Shown piece after piece: positions 29,058-38,782 of a stretch of DNA of 52,915 bases. The stretch covers positions 1 to 52,915 of the forward strand of contig DVAB01000033.1 of the NCBI GenBank assembly GCA_014189685.1. The letters run 5' to 3'. The position numbers and the translations under genes are program-made. The notes under the pieces were generated by a model, which worked only from the letters and a program-made list of their open reading frames with translations, was not told the DNA's origin and did no database searches. Position 1 is the first letter of the stretch. Every line of letters begins with the position of its first letter. This stretch comes from Candidatus Naiadarchaeum limnaeum (lineage in GTDB: Archaea; Undinarchaeota; Undinarchaeia; Undinarchaeales; Naiadarchaeaceae).

Positions 29058-30083
29058 ATGGCAGAAGCAATTATTACAAAAAAATGTATAGTTACCGGGG
29101 GGGCAGGTTTTATAGGATCTCATATAGTTGACCGTTTATTAAAAGATGGGCATACTGTTACAGTTCTTGATAACTTTTCCTCAGGTCGCAAAGAGAACTT
29201 AGCACATCACAAAGGAAACAAGAGATTAAAAGTTGTTAATGTTGATATTGCTGACTTTAATAAAATTAAAAAATACTTTAAAGGAATTGACTGGGTTTTT
29301 CATTTGGCTGCACTTGCAGATATCGTTCCCTCAATAAAAGAGCCATTAAAATATCACCACTCAAATGTTGCTGGGACTGTTTCTGTTCTTGAGGCCTCTC
29401 GTCTAAACAATATAAAACGATTTCTCTACGCAGGCTCGGCCTCCTACTATGGAATTCCAGACAATTACCCTACGCCTGAAACAGCTGAAATAAGAATAGA
29501 GTACCCCTATGCTCTTACAAAATATCTAGGGGAATTAGCTGTATTACACTGGGGCAAGGTTTATGGTCTGCCTGTTGTCTCGCTCAGAATGTTTAATGTC
29601 TATGGTCCAAGATCAAGAACAAGCGGAGCTTATGGGGCTGTTTTTGGTGTATTCTTAGCGCAAAAACTTGCAGAAAAGCCTTTTACTGTTATTGGAAATG
29701 GGGCGCAAACAAGAGATTTTACTTTTGTAACTGATTGTGTTGAGGCATTTATTTTAGCAGCAAAGTCTAATATTCAAAATGAGGTGTTCAATGTCAGCGT
29801 AGGAGAGGGCCACAGTGTTAATGAAATAATTGAGTTGCTTGGGGGTGGAGAGGTTGTTCACCTTCCAAAAAGGCCAGGGGAGCCAGACAAAACATTGTCT
29901 GATAGTTCTAAAATAAAGAGAATGCTTGGGTGGGCCCCTAAAGTTAAATTTGAGGACGGAGTTAAGATAATGTTGGCTAATATAAATTACTGGAAAAACG
30001 CCCCTGTTTGGGATGAAAACTCAATTTCAAAGGCAACAGCAGAGTGGTTCCAGTACTTAGGCAAGAAAAAATTATCCCAATAA
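29058..30083 (+). CDS. NAD-dependent nucleotide-sugar epimerase (extended SDR)
   Basis: 341 aa. NAD site TGGAGFIGSH (about 13-22), DNFSSG (about 37-42), FHLAALADIVPS, catalytic Ser and Y-x3-K in YPYALTKYLGE (about 151-161), NVYGPR and the C-terminal GWAPK. Resembles UDP-glucose/UDP-GlcNAc 4-epimerase or UDP-glucuronate 4-epimerase. A TATA-like AACCTTAAATATG lies at 28996-29008. Followed after 12 bases by a GT39-type membrane glycosyltransferase, so both probably serve the surface glycan. Confidence 0.88.
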   Translation: MAEAIITKKCIVTGGAGFIGSHIVDRLLKDGHTVTVLDNFSSGRKENLAHHKGNKRLKVVNVDIADFNKIKKYFKGIDWVFHLAALADIVPSIKEPLKYHHSNVAGTVSVLEASRLNNIKRFLYAGSASYYGIPDNYPTPETAEIRIEYPYALTKYLGELAVLHWGKVYGLPVVSLRMFNVYGPRSRTSGAYGAVFGVFLAQKLAEKPFTVIGNGAQTRDFTFVTDCVEAFILAAKSNIQNEVFNVSVGEGHSVNEIIELLGGGEVVHLPKRPGEPDKTLSDSSKIKRMLGWAPKVKFEDGVKIMLANINYWKNAPVWDENSISKATAEWFQYLGKKKLSQ

Positions 30084-30095
30084 CAATGATGTGCG

Positions 30096-31700
30096 ATGGA
30101 CCTGAAAAGCAGAAATTTCCAAATATTGTTGCTGATTATAATCTTAGGCATATCCCTGCGGCTTTATGGCCTTGGCACCGCAAGCATAAAAGCTGATGAA
30201 GGAGGAACAATTTTCCTCTCAGAGCGGTCGATATATCAAATAATTACCTCTGCAGAAGATGTACAGCCCCCCTTTTTCTATGCCGTATTACATTTTTGGA
30301 TAGCATTAGTTGGAAAAAGCGAATTTATGCTGCGGCTGCTCCCTGCAATTTTTTCCATTTTAACAATTCCCCTTGCCTATAAGCTCGGAAAAATTTTGTT
30401 TAATGAGGATGTTGGATTATTTTCTGCGTTTGTCTTTTCAGTTTCACAAGCAAATATAAGATTTGCTCAAAATTTGCGCAATTATTCTTTGGTAACCTTT
30501 TTTGTGCTGCTCTCAATTTACTTTTTCTATCAGTATTTAAGCAATCCGAACAAAAAATATCTTATTTTATTTGTAGTGAGCTCAGTGATTTCTGTTTATT
30601 CCCATTATTTTGCAGGTTTTGTTTTAGTCGCCCAAGTCTTATATCTGTTAATTTATTACAAAAAATATCGGGAATCTTTTGTTAAACTTTCTATTGCATT
30701 TATTGCTATTTTTGTCCTTCTATCCCCCTTAGCTACAATGTTTTTTTGGCAGGCATCAATAGAAACAAATCTTGAAAAGGCTATGTTTGAAAAAGATTCA
30801 CTTACCGATATTTCTTTAACTGCTCTAAATCAAAATAATATATTCGTTCGCATTTCTTTATTTTTTTATCACTTCAGTGTTGGGTTCCTGGAATTCAATT
30901 TGCAAAGCCCGTTTTTTGTTGCAATACTTTTTTTGGCCATAATTGTCTATGCAACTTTCTTTTTCACTGCACTTAGGTCTCTTCTACAACAAAGCAAGGA
31001 AAAACTAATGCTTCTTTTACTAATCCTAATTGTCCCAACTGCCCTCCTCTCTGTTCTCTGGCTCTCAAAAATTATAGTTCCATTAGCATATACAAGATAT
31101 CTTCTCTATATTTCTCCAATCTATTACACCATAATTGGAGTGGGTCTTTTCACTGGAATTAGTCAGCTCGAATCCTTAAAATCTAACTTATTAAAAAAAT
31201 CTGTTTTAGTTATCTTTATAGTTCTTATTTTATCTTTTAATTCAGTCTCGCTTTTGGTTTATTATGATTCTGATCCTAAAAAAGAGGACTGGCGCTCTGC
31301 AGTTTCTCTAATTAATAGCAAATCAAATGGCAATGAGGTTATTGGTATTTACTCCGGAGCCTATACTTTTAATTTGAAAAGTTATTTGCTTAAAGATCTT
31401 GAAATTTATACTCTGCCTGAAAACTTTAATATTCGCGGTGCCACTTTATCAAAAATTCTTTATAGTTCCTTTAACCCAATTAACGAGTCTAACAGTTGCA
31501 ATATTCTAAATCTTTTAGACGAGAGTAAAACTGGAATATGGTATGTGCACGCTGCTCCAACATCTCCTTCTGATAAAGATTTGATTAAAAAATGCCTAGA
31601 TTCAAATTTAAAACTCGCCGATTCTTTTGAAAATTCATATACAAATTCACGTGGCACAGTAATTAAGGATCTTTTAGTTTATCACTATGTTGTTAAATAA
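30096..31700 (+). CDS. GT39/ArnT-like membrane glycosyltransferase
   Basis: 534 aa with a dozen hydrophobic helices (about 8-370) and a C-terminal extracytoplasmic domain. The first loop has ADEGG near residue 34, giving the Asp-Glu pair typical of PMT/ArnT GT-C enzymes, followed by QPPFFYAVLHFWI. YSHYFAG near 169 and RFAQNLRNYS near 127 also match. These enzymes use polyprenyl-phosphate sugars outside the membrane and modify proteins, glycans or lipids. Lys/Asn-rich, low-complexity AT codon use is typical of the window. The exact acceptor is unknown. Confidence 0.85.
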   Translation: MDLKSRNFQILLLIIILGISLRLYGLGTASIKADEGGTIFLSERSIYQIITSAEDVQPPFFYAVLHFWIALVGKSEFMLRLLPAIFSILTIPLAYKLGKILFNEDVGLFSAFVFSVSQANIRFAQNLRNYSLVTFFVLLSIYFFYQYLSNPNKKYLILFVVSSVISVYSHYFAGFVLVAQVLYLLIYYKKYRESFVKLSIAFIAIFVLLSPLATMFFWQASIETNLEKAMFEKDSLTDISLTALNQNNIFVRISLFFYHFSVGFLEFNLQSPFFVAILFLAIIVYATFFFTALRSLLQQSKEKLMLLLLILIVPTALLSVLWLSKIIVPLAYTRYLLYISPIYYTIIGVGLFTGISQLESLKSNLLKKSVLVIFIVLILSFNSVSLLVYYDSDPKKEDWRSAVSLINSKSNGNEVIGIYSGAYTFNLKSYLLKDLEIYTLPENFNIRGATLSKILYSSFNPINESNSCNILNLLDESKTGIWYVHAAPTSPSDKDLIKKCLDSNLKLADSFENSYTNSRGTVIKDLLVYHYVVK

Positions 31701-31720: not shown

Positions 31721-31764
31721 TATATGATAGTATTTAAATACTTTATCATACTTAGTATGATAAT
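31721..31764 (+). promoter_or_regulatory. Palindromic operator/promoter of the RHH-nucleotidyltransferase gene
   Basis: Three heptamer half-sites: TATGATA (31723-31729), TATCATA (31744-31750, opposite direction) and TATGATA (31756-31762). The last two form the 19-base palindrome TATCATAC-TTA-GTATGATA ending two bases before the ATG. Between the first two lies AGTATTTAAATACT (31729-31742), a perfect 14-base palindrome holding the TATA box 25-30 bases before the ATG. So binding sites flank TATA and cover the start. RHH proteins bind such repeats; autoregulation is inferred. Confidence 0.65.
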
Positions 31765-32598
31765 ATGCCCAAGGATAGAATTACCATTACTCTTGAGAAA
31801 GAGCTATTAAAAAAGCTTGATACTCTCGTTGATGGCCGGGATATTAGAAGCAGATCGCATGCAATAGAGCGAGCGCTTTTTAGCCATTTAGAAGAGGGTA
31901 AAGTAAAACAAGCTTTGATTTTAGCCGGAGGAGAAGGCACTCGATTGCGGCCATTTACTTATGAGATTCCCAAACCCCTTATTCCAATAAAAGGAAAACC
32001 AATGCTTGAGCATATTATAAACCACCTTTTAGCCTATGGGGTAAAGAATTTTATACTGTCTGTCGGTTATATGTCTGAAAAAATAATTTCGCACTTTGGC
32101 GATGGAAAAAAACTTGGGGTCCATATAGATTATGTAATTGAAAAAGAAAGGCTAGGAACAGCAGGCCCGCTAAGACTTGCAAAAGATCTTTTGGAAGAAG
32201 ATTTTCTAATGTTAAACGGTGATATTCTTTCAAGGGTAAATATCACAGAATTTTTCGCGCATCATCAAAAAATGAATGGTCTCGGAACTATTGTTTTAGT
32301 TGCCGTTAATGATCCCTCAAAATATGGGACAGTCGATCTGTATGGAAACAAAATAATGAAATTTGTTGAAAAGCCAAAAAAAAGCAAAGTGGTTTCAAAC
32401 CTAGTGAATGGTGGAATTTACCTTCTTAAATCCGATATAATTGACTATGTTCCAAAAAAAGGATTTTCAATGATTGAAAAGGATGTTTTTCCCAAATTAG
32501 CGCAAGAAGAGAAGCTCTATGGCTATATCTACACAGGGCCGTGGTATGATTTAGGCACTATAGAAAGTTATGGGCAGGCAATTAAAAATTGGAGCTGA
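31765..32598 (+). CDS. RHH DNA-binding domain fused to sugar-1-phosphate nucleotidyltransferase
   Basis: 277 aa. Residues 1-46 are a ribbon-helix-helix domain: beta strand RITITLEKEL, helix LLKKLDTLVDG, then RSRSHAIERALFSHLEE. Residues 48-277 are a complete nucleotidyltransferase: ALILAGGEGTRLRPFT (50-65), IPKPLIPIKGKPM with Lys70, LNGDIL near 151-156 with metal-binding Asp, VEKPKKS near 197, and GPWYDLGT near the end. It should make an NDP-sugar from sugar 1-phosphate. The fusion is not a frame accident: the link is in frame and both parts are intact. It may be an enzyme that senses substrate and controls its own gene, or the RHH may only give dimers. Confidence 0.88.
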   Translation: MPKDRITITLEKELLKKLDTLVDGRDIRSRSHAIERALFSHLEEGKVKQALILAGGEGTRLRPFTYEIPKPLIPIKGKPMLEHIINHLLAYGVKNFILSVGYMSEKIISHFGDGKKLGVHIDYVIEKERLGTAGPLRLAKDLLEEDFLMLNGDILSRVNITEFFAHHQKMNGLGTIVLVAVNDPSKYGTVDLYGNKIMKFVEKPKKSKVVSNLVNGGIYLLKSDIIDYVPKKGFSMIEKDVFPKLAQEEKLYGYIYTGPWYDLGTIESYGQAIKNWS

Positions 32599-32610: not shown

Positions 32611-33477
32611 TTATTTTAAGTAACTCTCAAGGATTTTTTTAGATTCAAGAATTTCCTTTATGCTCAAATTTCCACTTTCAAGGGTCATCGGAACTTTTCC
32701 AGCTTTCTTGCGCACAATTTTTTCTAAAAACCAGCTATCCTTTCTTATATTCTGATGCGTATCCGCATTTCCATCGTTCTCATGCAAATGTAAGCCAAGT
32801 ATGTGGTCGTATAGTGTATTAATAAAAATCTCTTTATTAAACTTATACCACTTTGATGCAACGTTCAAATGCCCCACATCCAGGAGCACTCCAAATTCAT
32901 TGAATTCATTCAGTTCACGAAACATTGTCTCAAATTCATCCGGTTTTTGCATTAACAAATAATCTCCAACAAACCCTGCTTGTGTTGAGCTTGAAGTGTT
33001 ATTTTCAACAGCAAAATTTACTCCTTTTTCCTCAGCGTACGGAATTATTTCTCTTAAAGAGCTGATAAAAATTTCATAAGACCTCTCATATGGCAATGGA
33101 GTTCCGCTGAACTTAAACCCTTTATCAGGATCAAGTATAAACCCTGCGTGAATTGCATAAAATCTTGATCCAAGTGTTTCACAAAGGTCAAGCGCAGTTT
33201 TTGCATGATCAATGCTCTTCTCCCTTATATTTTCATTTGGCGAAGCCAAGTTTAAAATTAAGTTATCCTCTCTCGGCGGGAAATAATTGTGCACAACAAA
33301 TTTAACTTTATTAGAATTCTGAAATTCACTTACTTTTTTCTCAATATTTGGAGTATATAGATGCGAAGATCCAAGCTCAATATTTTTTATTCCTGATTCC
33401 ACATATTTCTCTAGCGTTTTAAACAAATCCCTGCCGCCTCTTAAACAAGAAGTCGAAATATAAACAAGTTCTTTCAT
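32611..33477 (-). CDS. TIM-barrel sugar isomerase/epimerase (AP endonuclease 2 family)
   Basis: 288 aa xylose-isomerase-like barrel. IELGSSHLY near 34, KFVVHNYFPP (about 59-68), FYAIHAGFI (about 106-114), FAVENNT (about 150-156), LLDVGHLNVA (about 195-204), LGLHLHEN (about 224-231) and MTLES near 266 supply the expected His, Glu and Asp metal ligands around the barrel. Last gene of the 17-gene minus-strand operon, overlapping the NeuD-like gene by four bases. Such genes travel with nonulosonic acid sets; the substrate is not known. See the finding about the missing 2-epimerase. Confidence 0.82.
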   Translation of the reverse strand: MKELVYISTSCLRGGRDLFKTLEKYVESGIKNIELGSSHLYTPNIEKKVSEFQNSNKVKFVVHNYFPPREDNLILNLASPNENIREKSIDHAKTALDLCETLGSRFYAIHAGFILDPDKGFKFSGTPLPYERSYEIFISSLREIIPYAEEKGVNFAVENNTSSSTQAGFVGDYLLMQKPDEFETMFRELNEFNEFGVLLDVGHLNVASKWYKFNKEIFINTLYDHILGLHLHENDGNADTHQNIRKDSWFLEKIVRKKAGKVPMTLESGNLSIKEILESKKILESYLK

Positions 33478-34166
33478 TTTTCGTTTAGCTCAATGGCTTG
33501 CAATGCACTTACTTCCTTGCCCTTCTCAACTTTCTTTATTATTTTTGCAGGAACCCCAACAGCAACTACATTATCTGGAATGTCTTTTATAACAACACTT
33601 CCCGCTCCGATAATTGAGCCACCCCCAATTTTTACATTTTGGATTATCGTACTTCCAATTCCAATAAATGCTCCATTTCCTATCTTTACCTTGCCTGCAA
33701 TATTCACTCCTGGCGCAATATGTACATGATTCCCTATCATGTCTTGATGTTCAAGAATTGAACCTGAGTTTATTATAGTATCATCTCCAACCTTTGCTTC
33801 AACAGAAATTATAGCCTCCCTGCAAATTACAACCCCCTCTCCAATTTCAGCGCTATCAGCAATGCTAGCAGTCGGATGGATTGCGTTAATAAGAGTAAAG
33901 CCATCCTTTTTTAATGTCTTAAAATATTTTTCACGGATAACATTATCCCCCACAGCAACAATCGCCCCATCAATTTTCATCTTCTTTGCCAATTCAGGAA
34001 GTTTATCTAGCGGGCCGATTATAGGAACTCCATCAATATTTTCTCCTCGATGCTTAATATTGTCCACGATTCCAACCACTCCAATATTTCTATCGTGTTT
34101 TAGTATATCGAGTACAACTCTTGCTTGTCCACCGGCCCCAACAATAATTGCTTTTATTTTTTTCAT
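33474..34166 (-). CDS. NeuD/PglD-type acetyltransferase (LegH candidate)
   Basis: 230 aa. N-terminal Rossmann-like domain (AIIVGAGGQARVVLDIL, about 6-22; GIVDN; IVAVGDN near 71) binds the amino sugar nucleotide; the left-handed beta helix follows (IGEGVVICREAIIS, VGDDTIINSGSILEHQDMIGNHVHIAPGVNIAGKVKIGNGAFIGIGSTI with catalytic His near 137 and 146). The family includes sialic acid O-acetyltransferases and the N-acetyltransferases PglD and LegH that act on UDP-4-amino-4,6-dideoxy sugars. Next to NeuB, LegB- and LegC-like genes, N-acetylation is the better guess. Confidence 0.85.
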   Translation of the reverse strand: MKKIKAIIVGAGGQARVVLDILKHDRNIGVVGIVDNIKHRGENIDGVPIIGPLDKLPELAKKMKIDGAIVAVGDNVIREKYFKTLKKDGFTLINAIHPTASIADSAEIGEGVVICREAIISVEAKVGDDTIINSGSILEHQDMIGNHVHIAPGVNIAGKVKIGNGAFIGIGSTIIQNVKIGGGSIIGAGSVVIKDIPDNVVAVGVPAKIIKKVEKGKEVSALQAIELNEK

Positions 34167-35212
34167 GCTTTGAAGTAGCTTAACTTAAGCTCCTGTCCGG
34201 TTTTTATATCTTTTGTTACTTTTTTTCCAACAACTTTTTTGTAATCAGATGACTTTAAACTGCTCTCGGGTCTCATAAAAGCTAACATCCCAATTTTTAC
34301 TCTTGTGCCTTTTTTTATTTTTACTGCAGCATAAATCCCTCGGCGCATAACTCTTTTATTCCGTTTTTCAGCTTTTGTAAGAATCTTTTTTTCAGTTCCA
34401 AGGGCGCTTTCAACTGTTCTAATTTCCTCAACCATTTGTTTAAATTCATCTGGCTCGAGAGAAGCAAAATGGTCTGGCCCTTTCATTCTTCTGCTTAATG
34501 TAAAATGTTTTTCAATTACTTTCGCACCGAGCGCAACAGCTGCAAGCGGAGTTATTAACCCGGCTGAATTATCCGAATATCCAACAACGGTTCCGAAATT
34601 TCTCTTTAATGTTTGCATAACTCTTAGATTAGAATCTTTTATTTCAGGAGGATACTCAGAAATGCAGTGCATTAAAATAATTTTATTATTTCCGGCAGAT
34701 CTTACGGTTCCAATTGCGTGTTTCACTTCCCCTAGAGTTGCCATTCCAGTGCTCATAATAACCGGCTTCTTTGTTTTTGTAATCCTTTCGATTAATGGAA
34801 TGTTCACAATATCAGCTGATGCAACTTTGTAGGCAGGAACTCTTAGAGACTTGAGGAGTTCAACGCTTTCCAAATCATATGGAGTTGAAAAGAAAATTAT
34901 TTTCTTTATCTTTGCATACTTTGCAAGCGCTCTCTGTTCCTTCTCGCTCAGTTCCAATCTCTTTAGCATCTGATATTGTGTCCCCTTTTTTCCAGTTGTC
35001 CTTTTTTGATAGCCAGCCTTTGGAGTTTTTTTGAGAACTAATTTATCTGCACGAAAACTCTGAAACTTAACGGCATCCGCGCCTGCTTTAGCAGCAGCAT
35101 CTATTAACTTTTTTGCAAGCTTTAAGCTCCCATTGTGATTCACGCCTGCTTCAGCAACAATAAAGCAGGGCTCTCCATCTCCCACAAATCTTTTCCCGAT
35201 TTTCAATTTCAT
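34163..35212 (-). CDS. neuB: Nonulosonic acid synthase (NeuB/LegI family)
   Basis: 349 aa. Condenses phosphoenolpyruvate with a 6-carbon mannosamine-like sugar to give a nine-carbon nonulosonic acid. TIM-barrel residues: FIVAEAGVNHNGSLKLAKKLIDAA (about 18-41), ADAVKFQSFRADKL (about 44-57), FFSTPYDLESV, YKVASADIVNIPLI, MSTGMATLGE, LMHCISEYP and EKHFTLSRRMKGPDH (about 235-249). The C-terminal 65 residues form the SAF antifreeze-like domain (RRGIYAAVKIKKGTRV). Between NeuD-like and SDR genes; clear family call, sialic versus legionaminic or pseudaminic product unresolved. Confidence 0.93.
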   Translation of the reverse strand: MKLKIGKRFVGDGEPCFIVAEAGVNHNGSLKLAKKLIDAAAKAGADAVKFQSFRADKLVLKKTPKAGYQKRTTGKKGTQYQMLKRLELSEKEQRALAKYAKIKKIIFFSTPYDLESVELLKSLRVPAYKVASADIVNIPLIERITKTKKPVIMSTGMATLGEVKHAIGTVRSAGNNKIILMHCISEYPPEIKDSNLRVMQTLKRNFGTVVGYSDNSAGLITPLAAVALGAKVIEKHFTLSRRMKGPDHFASLEPDEFKQMVEEIRTVESALGTEKKILTKAEKRNKRVMRRGIYAAVKIKKGTRVKIGMLAFMRPESSLKSSDYKKVVGKKVTKDIKTGQELKLSYFKA

Positions 35213-35215
35213 CTC

Positions 35216-36004
35216 CTACCAAATAGTAAGTCCACCATCCACAACTAAATTGTGCCCTGTAACATAAGAAGATGCATCTGATGCCAAAAATAAAACCGCG
35301 CCACTTAATTCATTCTTGTTTGCCATTCTTCCAAGCGGAGTTTTTTCTGAATATTTCTTTACAAACTCATTTTCTTGATTATTAAATACACCTCCCGGAG
35401 AAATGCAATTCACACGAATATTTTTATCTGCCCAATAAGTAGCAAGATAAGTTGTTAATCCTATTAACCCTGCCTTGCTTGCCGAGTAAACAGCAGGGGT
35501 GTTTATTTTGGTTCCTTTGTAAATTCGTTGATCAGGAGCTTTTATTCCATAAACAGATGAAATATTAATTATTGAGCCAGAATTTTGTTTTGCCATTTGC
35601 TTTCCAACAGCCTGCGCGCACAGAAAAGCTCCTGTTAAATTAACACTCATCACTTTTTCCCAGTCCTCAAGTGGATAATCCTCAAACTTTGCATAGAAAT
35701 TTTTTGATTTTCCTGCGGCATTATTTACAAGCACATCAACCTTTCCAAGCTTTTTCACAACCTCTGAAACCATTTTCGCAACTTCATTCCTGTTTGTTAT
35801 ATCTGCCTTAACTCCGATTGCCTTTGTTCCATACTTTTTTGCCAAGCTTTCAGCCTGCTTTTTACAATCGCTCTCATTCAGGTCAACAACTATAACATTC
35901 GCCCCATAATCAGAAAGCGTTTCGCAGAATTCTTTTCCAAGCAATCCAGTCCCACCTGTTACAAGCACAACTTTCTCTGCCAAATCAAACATTTTATCTT
36001 TCAT
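35216..36004 (-). CDS. Short-chain dehydrogenase of the PtmA type
   Basis: 262 aa. NAD(P) motif VTGGTGLLGKEF (about 15-26), NNAAG (about 92-96), catalytic Ser in NISSVYG, and Y-x3-K in AVYSASKAGL (about 170-179), with SPGGV. Closest by eye to the SDR proteins (PtmA) in legionaminic-acid flagellin modification loci, which share the VYGIKAPDQRIYKG segment. Its place between NeuA- and NeuB-like genes supports that; the chemical step is not established. The start may be the Met at residue 5. Confidence 0.83.
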   Translation of the reverse strand: MKDKMFDLAEKVVLVTGGTGLLGKEFCETLSDYGANVIVVDLNESDCKKQAESLAKKYGTKAIGVKADITNRNEVAKMVSEVVKKLGKVDVLVNNAAGKSKNFYAKFEDYPLEDWEKVMSVNLTGAFLCAQAVGKQMAKQNSGSIINISSVYGIKAPDQRIYKGTKINTPAVYSASKAGLIGLTTYLATYWADKNIRVNCISPGGVFNNQENEFVKKYSEKTPLGRMANKNELSGAVLFLASDASSYVTGHNLVVDGGLTIW

Positions 36005-36702
36005 TTTCTTCCCAATTTTTTCCTCATGAGGAAATCTGCTATTTTAAACTCATATTCGGTATCAATCATTAAAGACCTTTCTATTGGCATCAAAACCCCG
36101 CGCATTTTGTTTGTGAAATAAGTGCCCCTTTTCATTAATATATCTCTCCATGAAACAAAAACGCACGCATTCATCTGGTAAACCTTTGGTGCATCCTGCC
36201 TTCTCTTTACAACTTTTTTTGATTTCTTAGCTAAAGCTAAATATCCAGCTTTTGGCTCAAGCATATTGAAATAAGGATTGTGGTGCGATTCATAAACAGT
36301 AACAACAGAGTCTGTGTTTTTCTTCTTTAATGTACTTATACACTTTTCAATATCACTTACTTCCCTAAAGGGTGACGTAGGATCCATGTCAACAATTATG
36401 TCAAACTTTCTCCCCTCCCCATCCTCGATGAAATTTATTGCATGCTGAAGAGCAGGAATTTTTGATATATTGTCTGTTGCAAGTTCTTTTGGCCGCATAA
36501 ACGGAACTTCTGCTCCATAATCATTTGCAACTTTTGCAATCTCAACATTATCAGTTGAAACTATAGTTCGATATACTTTTTTGCAAGCAAGCGATTGTTC
36601 AATAGTATATGCGATTAAAGGTTTTCCAGCGAGCAACTTAATATTTTTCTTTGGAACTCCTTTCGAGCCCCCTCGCGCGCAGATTATTGAAACTATTTTC
36701 AT
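36001..36702 (-). CDS. neuA: Acylneuraminate cytidylyltransferase (NeuA/LegF family)
   Basis: 233 aa. Activates a nonulosonic acid with CTP to its CMP form. ICARGGSKGVPKKNIKLLAGKPLIAYTI (about 7-34, shown here in parts: ARGGSKG and KNIK bind CTP), STDNVEIA (about 49-56), DMDPTSPFR (about 105-113) and the metal-binding Asp in IDTEYEFKIAD near the end. Overlaps the start of the SDR gene by four bases. With NeuB it is the firmest evidence that the cell makes a CMP-nonulosonate. Confidence 0.93.
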   Translation of the reverse strand: MKIVSIICARGGSKGVPKKNIKLLAGKPLIAYTIEQSLACKKVYRTIVSTDNVEIAKVANDYGAEVPFMRPKELATDNISKIPALQHAINFIEDGEGRKFDIIVDMDPTSPFREVSDIEKCISTLKKKNTDSVVTVYESHHNPYFNMLEPKAGYLALAKKSKKVVKRRQDAPKVYQMNACVFVSWRDILMKRGTYFTNKMRGVLMPIERSLMIDTEYEFKIADFLMRKKLGRK

Positions 36703-37673
36703 TTTAACTTTACAATCCTCCCTTTTTTTGCAGCAAGCACAATTTCTAAAACCTTTTTCCCATCCTCCAAAGTTATTGATGATTTCTCTTTTCCTCTTAA
36801 CACATTTAAAAAGTGTTTCATTTCCTCTTCGTACGTTTTTTCCATATCGTTTTGAGGTGCTGTATAGCTATACCATCTATTTCTTGCTGAATCAAAGAAA
36901 CAAACACATCTGTAATATAAATCCCAGAAGGCACTTCCTTTTGTTCCAAATATTTCGCAGTATCTCTGGGGAGTTCTCTGCAGGTAATCCAAGTGAATAT
37001 TCCCAATTGTGCCATTTTTAAATTTTAAACTTATGTCTGCAACATCCTCTGTGTCAATCTGCAAGTTGCTAATTTTATCTGTGCGCGCAAAAACTTCTTT
37101 TGCTTCGCCCACAAGCCATCTAACATAATCAATCTCATGACTTAAATCCAAAATTACTCCGCCGCCCATTTTTTTCTTTGCACTATAACTTTTTCTATAA
37201 TCCTGATTTGGCCTCCAGTCAGGCAAATATTGCCCGGCAACTGCATTTATGTATAAAACTTTCCCAATTTTTCCGCTTTTTATTATCTCTCTCAATTTCC
37301 TAAGCCCCCAGAGAAATCGCATATTGTATCCAACAAAAACCTTCAATCTTTTTTTCTTTACAATATTCTCCAGATTTTTAATTCCGCTCAGTTTGTGAGA
37401 TATTGGTTTCTCAATAAACAAATGCGCGCCTGCCTTTGCAGCTTTTAGCGCTATCTGAACATGCATGCTTGTTGGATTTGTAACAAAAACAGCATTTGGC
37501 TTCTCCCTTAAAGCTGCTTTTAAATTTTTGTAAACTTTTACTTGATATTTTTTTTCAAACTTCCTATCTTTTCCTCTCACTCTGCAGGCTAAAATCTTTA
37601 TTCCCTTAAATTTGCTCAAATTTCTAATATGCTTTTTTCCAATTGAGCCACAGCCCACAAACAAAATTTTCAT
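36699..37673 (-). CDS. Gfo/Idh/MocA family oxidoreductase
   Basis: 324 aa. FVGCGSIGKKHIRNL (about 4-18), VTNPTSMH near 69, the Glu-Lys-Pro of LFIEKPISH (about 89-97), and DLSHEIDYVRW (about 174-184) with catalytic His/Asp. Located between the aminotransferase and NeuA genes with four-base overlaps on both sides. Similar oxidoreductases occur in legionaminic loci. It is a paralogue of the gene at 25204 but diverged, so the two act on different sugars. Confidence 0.83.
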   Translation of the reverse strand: MKILFVGCGSIGKKHIRNLSKFKGIKILACRVRGKDRKFEKKYQVKVYKNLKAALREKPNAVFVTNPTSMHVQIALKAAKAGAHLFIEKPISHKLSGIKNLENIVKKKRLKVFVGYNMRFLWGLRKLREIIKSGKIGKVLYINAVAGQYLPDWRPNQDYRKSYSAKKKMGGGVILDLSHEIDYVRWLVGEAKEVFARTDKISNLQIDTEDVADISLKFKNGTIGNIHLDYLQRTPQRYCEIFGTKGSAFWDLYYRCVCFFDSARNRWYSYTAPQNDMEKTYEEEMKHFLNVLRGKEKSSITLEDGKKVLEIVLAAKKGRIVKLK

Positions 37674-38782
37674 TTTTTCCTTTTTATCTTTTCAAGTGTT
37701 TCCACAACTCTCTGAATGTCAGCTTTGCCCATGCTCAATGCTGATGGCAAAACAATACCTTTTCGTGCAACTTCCTCTGCTACTTTTAATTGTATTCTTT
37801 CTCTTGAATATTCAGGCTGAGTGTGAACCGGATAGAAAAACGGCCTTGTTTCCATATTCTCTTTTTTTAATTTTTGAATTAAGTCATCTCTATCTAATCC
37901 AAATTCGTCCTCAATTAAAACCCCAAACATCCAGTAAACACTTTTTGCCCAGCTTTTTTCAACTTGCAATGTAATTCCATCTACTTCAGAGAGCAATTTT
38001 TTGTAGAGCTCTGCATTTTTCCTTTTCATACCAATAAATTTCTTTATTTTTTTCATCTGCGCCAGCCCAAGCGCTGCTTGAAGATTAGTCATTCTGTAAT
38101 TATACCCTAAATAGGGATGCCAGTACCATTTTTCAGCTGACATCCCGTGGCTTCGCAAAGTTTTTGCCTTCTCAACAAATTCATCATCATTTGTAGTTAC
38201 CATTCCGCCCTCACCAGTTGTAATTATTTTATTTCCATAAAAGCTAAAACAATTATAATCCCCGATTCCACCAACTTTTTTCCCTTTGTACTCTGCCCCG
38301 TGCGCCTCTGCAGCATCCTCTATGACAATCAAATTTTTTCTTTTGGCAATTTCTAAAATCGGATCCATATCAGCCGGATGCCCATACAGATGGACAGGAA
38401 TAATTGCTTTTGTTTTTTCTGTAATTGCAGATTCAATTTTTTCAGTATCAATATTCCACGTTTCACTTTCCGAATCAACAAAAACAGCTTTCGCACCGCA
38501 GTACTTTACAACATTCGCAGTTGCAATAAAAGTTAAACTCGGAACTATAACTTCATCTCCGGGTTTTATTCCAAGCGTAGCAAGAACTAGGTGCAATGCA
38601 GTTGTTCCATTTGATGTTGCAACCCCATATTTAGTATCTACAAATCTTGAAAAACTTTTTTCAAATTCAGTAATGTATTTCCCTTTTGATGAAACCCAGC
38701 CGCTTTTTACACAATCGCTAACGTAAGATAATTCTTCCTTCCCAAAAATTGGCTCAGCAATAGGTAAAAATTTTTTGGCCAT
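37670..38782 (-). CDS. PLP-dependent nucleotide-sugar aminotransferase (DegT/DnrJ; LegC- or perosamine synthase-like)
   Basis: 370 aa. The PLP Lys is K185 in FSFYGNKIITTGEGGM; EDAAEAHGAEYKGKKVG (about 155-171) contacts the cofactor; TSNGTTALHL (about 56-65) binds phosphate. The segment SLTFIATANVVKYCGAK is characteristic of C4-aminating enzymes of 4-keto-6-deoxy sugars. Directly follows the LegB-like dehydratase gene, so it should aminate that product at C4. A C3-aminating WbpE-like role is an alternative. Overlaps the MocA gene by four bases. Confidence 0.9.
   Translation of the reverse strand: MAKKFLPIAEPIFGKEELSYVSDCVKSGWVSSKGKYITEFEKSFSRFVDTKYGVATSNGTTALHLVLATLGIKPGDEVIVPSLTFIATANVVKYCGAKAVFVDSESETWNIDTEKIESAITEKTKAIIPVHLYGHPADMDPILEIAKRKNLIVIEDAAEAHGAEYKGKKVGGIGDYNCFSFYGNKIITTGEGGMVTTNDDEFVEKAKTLRSHGMSAEKWYWHPYLGYNYRMTNLQAALGLAQMKKIKKFIGMKRKNAELYKKLLSEVDGITLQVEKSWAKSVYWMFGVLIEDEFGLDRDDLIQKLKKENMETRPFFYPVHTQPEYSRERIQLKVAEEVARKGIVLPSALSMGKADIQRVVETLEKIKRKK

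Follow-up and report, generated by a model that had tools for sequence, protein, structure and literature searches.

Can an enzyme that activates sugars also be the repressor of its own gene? The question is raised by an open reading frame of Candidatus Naiadarchaeum limnaeum that joins an N-terminal ribbon-helix-helix (RHH) domain to a sugar nucleotidyltransferase, and which we analysed within contig DVAB01000033.1 (the window, 52,915 nucleotides in its whole length). Judging from the sequence comparisons below, we consider it quite probable that the fusion is a trigger enzyme, one that would combine NDP-sugar synthesis with ligand-modulated autorepression via TCATAC/GTATGA boxes.

Two complete domains in one reading frame

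31765-32598, + strand: RHH-nucleotidyltransferase fusion gene (open reading frame list, Pfam, full-length homologues in at least 100 genomes)
31765-31902, + strand: RHH domain of NikR/CopG type, residues 1-46 (Pfam RHH_1; profile against the PDB)
31777-31794, + strand: DNA-reading strand R5-I-T7-I-T9-L10 (alignment)
31912-32586, + strand: NTP_transferase (NDP-sugar pyrophosphorylase) domain (Pfam, AF2, Foldseek; intact by motif)
31921-31953, + strand: NTP-binding loop LAGGEGTRLRP, residues 53-63 (alignment)
32221-32223, + strand: D153 of NGD (conserved in all catalytically intact members)
32548-32550, + strand: D262 of WYDLGT (alignment)

The fusion product is 277 aa long, begins with ATG and has no internal stops. 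The original prediction of a complete RHH domain and a complete nucleotidyltransferase in one continuous frame is borne out: Pfam places RHH_1 at residues 5-43 (E 4e-7, 30.2 bits versus a cut-off of 20.5) and NTP_transferase at residues 50-274 (E 6e-50, 170.5 bits versus a cut-off of 21.2), and the motifs are intact. On comparative grounds the fusion is neither an assembly nor a start-codon artefact, because the same pairing of RHH_1 and NTP_transferase in one open reading frame recurs, with near-equal linker length, in six archaeal phyla; in the alignment, the spacing from RHH to enzyme is almost constant across relatives, whose genomes are MAG-based. The window genome (984 kb, 98% complete) holds three further NTP_transferase genes, whose alignment to the fusion protein begins only at residue 44-47, so that these three proteins are without the RHH domain.

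By alignment, the R-x-T-x-T pattern of the RHH strand is present in the window protein (R5, T7, T9); NikR reads GTATGA/TCATAC with a strand of this pattern, as seen in its co-crystal structure. Against the PDB, the RHH profile matches E. coli NikR (E 6e-9), Pyrococcus NikR (5e-7) and CopG (0.01), with one antitoxin ranked before CopG. AF2 was run with enzyme-only relatives as the alignment and, separately, on the 60-residue N-terminus; for the N-terminal part, given input without RHH alignment rows, it returned a helical model at pLDDT of about 48-60 and did not build the RHH fold. An RHH-only scan of viral contigs found no relative, and a search of plasmid proteins found no fusion, the matches listed starting at residue 26 at least and having less than 60% identity.

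The catalytic signature of the enzyme half is full in the alignment, LAGGEGTRLRPFT..PKPL, NGD (D153), VEKP and WYDLGT (D262), with the GGxGTRLxPxT...PKP loop, the NGD and WxDxGT aspartates and EKP all in place; from knowledge of the family, we take D153 to be a metal ligand and D262 to be the second. AF2 models the enzyme domain mostly at pLDDT above 90, its best Foldseek matches are GDP-mannose pyrophosphorylases, and the nearest solved structures are mannose-1-phosphate guanylyltransferases (including GMPPB/VTC1). GMPPs have a C-terminal beta-helix domain, which the fusion lacks. No NCBIfam equivalog cut-off was reached that would name the enzyme, for instance as mannose-1-phosphate guanylyltransferase; the best model scores 187 bits versus a cut-off of 440. 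The domain is predicted to be an NDP-sugar maker, most like the GDP-mannose/UDP-glucose pyrophosphorylases.

A candidate operator upstream of the fusion gene

31743-31763, no strand assigned: operator candidate, perfect 21-bp palindrome TTATCATACTTAGTATGATAA with boxes TCATAC (31746-31751) and GTATGA (31755-31760) (shuffles, uniqueness, relatives)
31722-31727, + strand: possible third box ATATGA, one mismatch (box search)
31733-31740, + strand: TATA-box-like TTTAAATA, 25-32 bp before the ATG (8/8 consensus match; putative promoter element)

Upstream palindromes had been named together with the fusion, and one is indeed present: TTATCATACTTAGTATGATAA spans -22 to -2, between the TATA-like box and the start codon, and holds TCATAC-N3-GTATGA. 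It was reached in 0 of 200 dinucleotide shuffles. In the whole 984-kb genome it is unique, the next best sites having 2-3 mismatches and being no commoner than a control pattern, and the near matches that we inspected (L092-L095) fall within open reading frames; no further paired boxes were found within the window. Because the palindrome is unique there, autoregulation is the function that is supported by these comparisons in the window genome. The original prediction had the enzyme both repressing itself and controlling surface-glycan genes. The self-repressor design is favoured by the strand R5-T7-T9, by the overlap of the palindrome with the putative promoter and by conservation of the box upstream of relatives in other phyla, whereas control of other surface-glycan genes found no support in this genome, where the palindrome is unique and the window has no other paired boxes.

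Spread of the fusion and decay of its catalytic half

Full-length matches in several archaeal families already came from a first search, of 40 relatives; with whole-phylum searches, which used an alignment of eight fusions (A1), the count of genomes with a full-length relative rises to at least 100, spread over six archaeal phyla and almost all 0.5-2.5 Mb in size. The fusion is present in 22 of 29 genomes of P16, 6 of 19 of P13, 20 of 28 of P22, at least 43 of 295 of P11 and 8 of 10 of P23 (the phyla of genomes G016, G013, G022, G011 and G023, respectively), and in the phylum of G000 it occurs in G000 only, one genome of six. A quick tree needs 6 changes between fusion and non-fusion (shuffles, 35) and is compatible with a single or a repeated origin of the fusion. 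L083 (G064), a nucleotidyltransferase that adjoins the P16 fusions in this tree, is without the RHH domain, likely through secondary loss.

Catalytic motifs are intact in 26 of 86 aligned fusions, the window protein included, and are not intact in the other 60; this degeneracy of most relatives is a feature that the original prediction had not included. Most of these 60 have lost the GxGTR...P loop, the holder of the NTP phosphates, and a metal-ligand aspartate is often gone (D153 is replaced by H in 12 of 20 P22 members, and most P11 members have another residue in place of D262). The same degenerate fusions keep the GTAG glycine without exception (60/60) and EKP in most cases, and the strand pattern R/K-[TSA]-[TS] is kept in 57 of them versus 12 of the 26 intact fusions (Fisher p 9e-7, kinship ignored), suggesting that these 57 are probably pseudo-enzyme regulators. 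The intact fusions without a canonical strand are almost all from P16, which holds the members closest to the window protein (G016, 52-53% identical) and in which all 22 fusions are catalytically intact and 13 of the 22 have an altered strand. The window protein has kept both its catalytic motifs and its DNA-reading strand. Three P16 members (L075, L078, L079) have an acidic strand (KEE, RED) instead of R-T-T together with an intact enzyme; their RHH domain perhaps serves as a dimeriser only.

This decay bears on the possibility that the operator is bound in plain concentration-dependent autorepression, with no metabolite sensing by the enzyme domain. RHH repressors like CopG need no small ligand, and the fusion sequence carries no sign of allostery. 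However, 60 relatives retain degenerate enzyme domains with sugar-side motifs (the GTAG glycine and, mostly, EKP), a retention that would be hard to explain if they bound no ligand. We rate unaided autorepression as unlikely and prefer a trigger enzyme with a ligand-binding catalytic or formerly catalytic half.

Shared boxes upstream of relatives

The half-site ATCATAC of the window palindrome was tested on the upstream regions of fusions in other phyla. In counts taken, like those of the strands, across related sequence groups with kinship ignored, it occurs 49 times versus 15.6 expected in P11 (0/300 shuffles) and 8 times versus 2.4 in P13 (0/300). P16 gave 7 matches versus 3.7 (p 0.09) for canonical-strand members and 7 versus 5.4 for altered-strand members, under a strand-based grouping that was set once some of the upstream regions had already been viewed (those in the P11 test being mostly new), and the box was not enriched upstream of the P22 and P23 fusions. 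De novo, the top 6-mer in P11 is GTATGA, found in 18 of 29 upstream regions versus 1.9 expected. Same-strand boxes in P11 are spaced by precisely 10 bp (18 pairs, against a shuffle mean of 0.07 and maximum of 1), 20 bp (11) or 30 bp (7) and hardly ever by other distances; for inverted pairs the usual distances are 11 bp (or 21 bp) and 9 bp (or 19 bp), the window pair being of the 9-bp kind. Such helical phasing is the pattern that stacked RHH dimers would give. Most relatives showed no significant palindrome in a simple-palindrome test of single upstream regions because their boxes are tandem.

The hexamer of the window and P11 boxes, found without the use of NikR, is the half-site of E. coli NikR, the operator of which is GTATGA-N16-TCATAC (PMC7055735; PMC4486848). 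The same box could also be read by a different RHH protein encoded in the genome. A broader doubt is whether the RHH is a mere dimerisation handle or relic on an ordinary pyrophosphorylase, with the palindrome read by another regulator or due to chance. P16 would fit such a relic, with 22 of 22 enzymes intact, 13 non-canonical strands of which some are acidic (KEE, RED, ETD) and no box enrichment, as would the unfused sister enzyme L083 and the missing RHH fold in the AF2 model, made without RHH rows. By contrast, the window protein keeps R-T-T and a perfect palindrome, in three phyla the boxes accompany a canonical strand, and the RHH is kept where degenerate relatives lose catalysis. We give the relic little credence, and continue to favour the trigger enzyme.

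Two further heptamers came to light upstream of fusions. One, ATCCTGC/CCTGCTCC, is enriched in P22 and was not counted as an operator; by eye, it is probably the start of a divergent epimerase gene. The other, GTAATAC, lies no more than about 30 bp from the start in 4 of 8 P23 upstream regions (L152, L157, L158, L159; expected about 0) and is possibly a variant operator of that branch.

Proposed mechanism

From what was computed (the fusion, the intact catalytic motifs, the conserved operator, the degenerate relatives and the family-wide retention), we infer DNA binding, catalysis, and repression rather than activation. The C-terminal domain would make the NDP-sugar, while the N-terminal NikR-type RHH, as a dimer, would bind the TCATAC/GTATGA boxes between the TATA box and the start codon of its own gene, where the bound dimer would block RNA polymerase and so repress the gene. 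Binding of substrate or product in the enzyme domain would alter the protein's affinity for DNA, such that the gene would be on when sugar-1-phosphate needs activation and off once the NDP-sugar pool has filled. Most relatives would have kept the DNA-reading half while their catalytic half decayed to a sensor, and many members of one phylum would have taken the reverse course. Least certain in this scheme are the identity of the ligand and its direction of action: by analogy with PutA (PMC5293562) and NrtR (PMC6800001), we tentatively suggest, at somewhat less than an even chance, that substrate-engaged enzyme leaves the DNA and that product-rich or idle enzyme represses.

Sites elsewhere in the genomes

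A scan for exact TCATAC-N4-TCATAC across about 59 Mb from 60 genomes, in 56 of which the fusion is confirmed, found 43 sites, of which 22 lie within about 170 bp upstream of a fusion. Six of the 21 non-self sites are within open reading frames and 15 are intergenic, and 8 of the 15 (the first six lines below) precede sugar-metabolism or glycosyltransferase genes, the identities of which were read from the proteins by eye.

L164: site before FBP aldolase/phosphatase with GAPDH
L167, L205: site before GAPDH
L197: site before GlpX-type FBPase
L192, L193 (same genus): site before PGI/PMI
L199: site before a divergent nucleotidyltransferase/PGM pair
L204: site before glycosyltransferases
L186, L200: site before S-layer-like proteins (at L200 a short, spurious-looking open reading frame overlaps the site)

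The 44 control genomes, in which no fusion was detected, make up about 39 Mb and yielded 10 sites, none of them found before gluconeogenic genes. A wider regulon in some relatives (GAPDH, FBPase, PGI/PMI, PGM/nucleotidyltransferase and S-layer genes) is possible, but only as a lead that turns on which genes follow the sites, because the density of non-self sites, about 0.35 per Mb, is hardly raised over the 0.26 of fusion-free genomes. More broadly, there may be just short of an even chance that RHH-(pseudo)nucleotidyltransferases are widespread metabolite-sensing transcription factors through which small-genome archaea would adjust gluconeogenesis, the supply of hexose phosphates (GAPDH, FBPase, PGI/PMI, PGM) and their surface-layer genes to the NDP-sugar pool, with the window member as a still-catalytic enzyme and repressor.

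These sites also raise the alternative that the boxes belong to a separate TrmB-type sugar regulator or a true NikR, the fusion gene being merely one target. TrmB/TrmBL1 are archaeal sugar-responsive gluconeogenesis regulators with the motif TATCAC-N5-GTGATA; the palindrome looks similar, resembling TATCA...TGATA, and some of the extra sites precede gluconeogenic genes, as for TrmB regulators (PMC4706686). However, the spacing here is TATCA-N9-TGATA versus N7 in the Thermococcales glycolytic motif, which same-strand tandem boxes at 10-bp steps misfit, and the fusion's own promoter holds half of the exact tandem sites, whereas the fusion-free genomes have just their 10. TrmB/TrmBL1 differ, too, in being a winged-helix family with no enzyme domain, and the window palindrome does not have the form of their operator. 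We regard a separate regulator as very improbable and prefer the trigger enzyme as the reader of the boxes.

Tandem TCATAC boxes also occur in two genomes in which no fusion was detected: in G041 (L206) they precede a HAD-phosphatase-like gene, and in G003 (L213) they lie between a DUF354-like gene and another.

Relation to known systems

By analogy, the fusion appears to work like PutA or NrtR, yet is a member of neither. PutA (trifunctional proline utilization A) carries an N-terminal RHH on a metabolic enzyme and is an autogenous repressor (PMC5293562); the window fusion shares the N-terminal RHH on an enzyme and the candidate operator in its own promoter, but PutA is bacterial and catabolic, its PRODH/P5CDH enzyme is absent from the fusion (Pfam), and its membrane switching has no counterpart there. 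NrtR (Nudix-related) likewise joins an enzyme-derived sensor to a DNA-binding domain and is an autorepressor with some catalytically dead members (PMC6800001), but its DNA-binding and enzyme folds are others, it is bacterial and belongs to NAD metabolism, and Pfam finds no Nudix match in the fusion. NikR has the closest RHH in the PDB and the same half-site (PMC7055735), but a C-terminal nickel-binding regulatory domain where the fusion has NTP_transferase, and half-sites spaced by 16 bp as against 3 bp in the window and 4 bp in tandem. GMPPA, a non-catalytic GDP-mannose-binding paralogue of GMPPB (PMC11228364), is a dead paralogue that parallels the degenerate members, and GMPPB/VTC1 are structurally closest to the fusion's enzyme domain; unlike the fusion, GMPPs are without a DNA-binding domain.

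In the open-access literature that we searched, we found no account of a transcription factor whose sensor is a sugar-nucleotide pyrophosphorylase domain. In small-genome archaea with few regulators, little is known of how sugar activation and surface-glycan supply are controlled, and here a biosynthetic enzyme is apparently its own repressor. The family forms a natural gradation, from enzyme plus regulator, through regulators whose enzyme is dead, to enzymes whose regulator is altered, and its operator code is precise; ligand and mechanism are therefore directly testable.

Gene neighbourhoods

29058-30083, + strand: NDP-sugar epimerase/dehydratase, upstream neighbour (Pfam)
30096-31700, + strand: PMT_2-type membrane glycosyltransferase, ending 64 bp before the fusion (Pfam)

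A PGM/PMM gene follows the fusion in 13 of 22 P16 members (Pfam for one of them), and relatives in other phyla lie beside a free-standing nucleotidyltransferase or an NDP-sugar epimerase (12 of 20 in P22). In 10 of the 22 P16 genomes (L061-L079) an RtcA-like RNA 3'-phosphate cyclase gene stands divergent to the fusion. At four P11 loci (L128, L136, L142, L147) the fusion is divergent from a gene of about 300 aa, followed by a 2'-5' RNA ligase-like gene (by eye), and the tandem boxes lie nearer the divergent gene.

Within the window, the minus strand at 34163-38782 encodes a NeuB-like synthase, a NeuA-like CMP-transferase and an aminotransferase, which by eye suggest a sialic/legionaminic-acid-like pathway in an archaeon; a PglD-like acetyltransferase (33474-34166; PglD_N, Pfam) adjoins this cluster. 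The window also holds, by eye, AglB-like, FEN-1-like and archaeal TruD-like genes.
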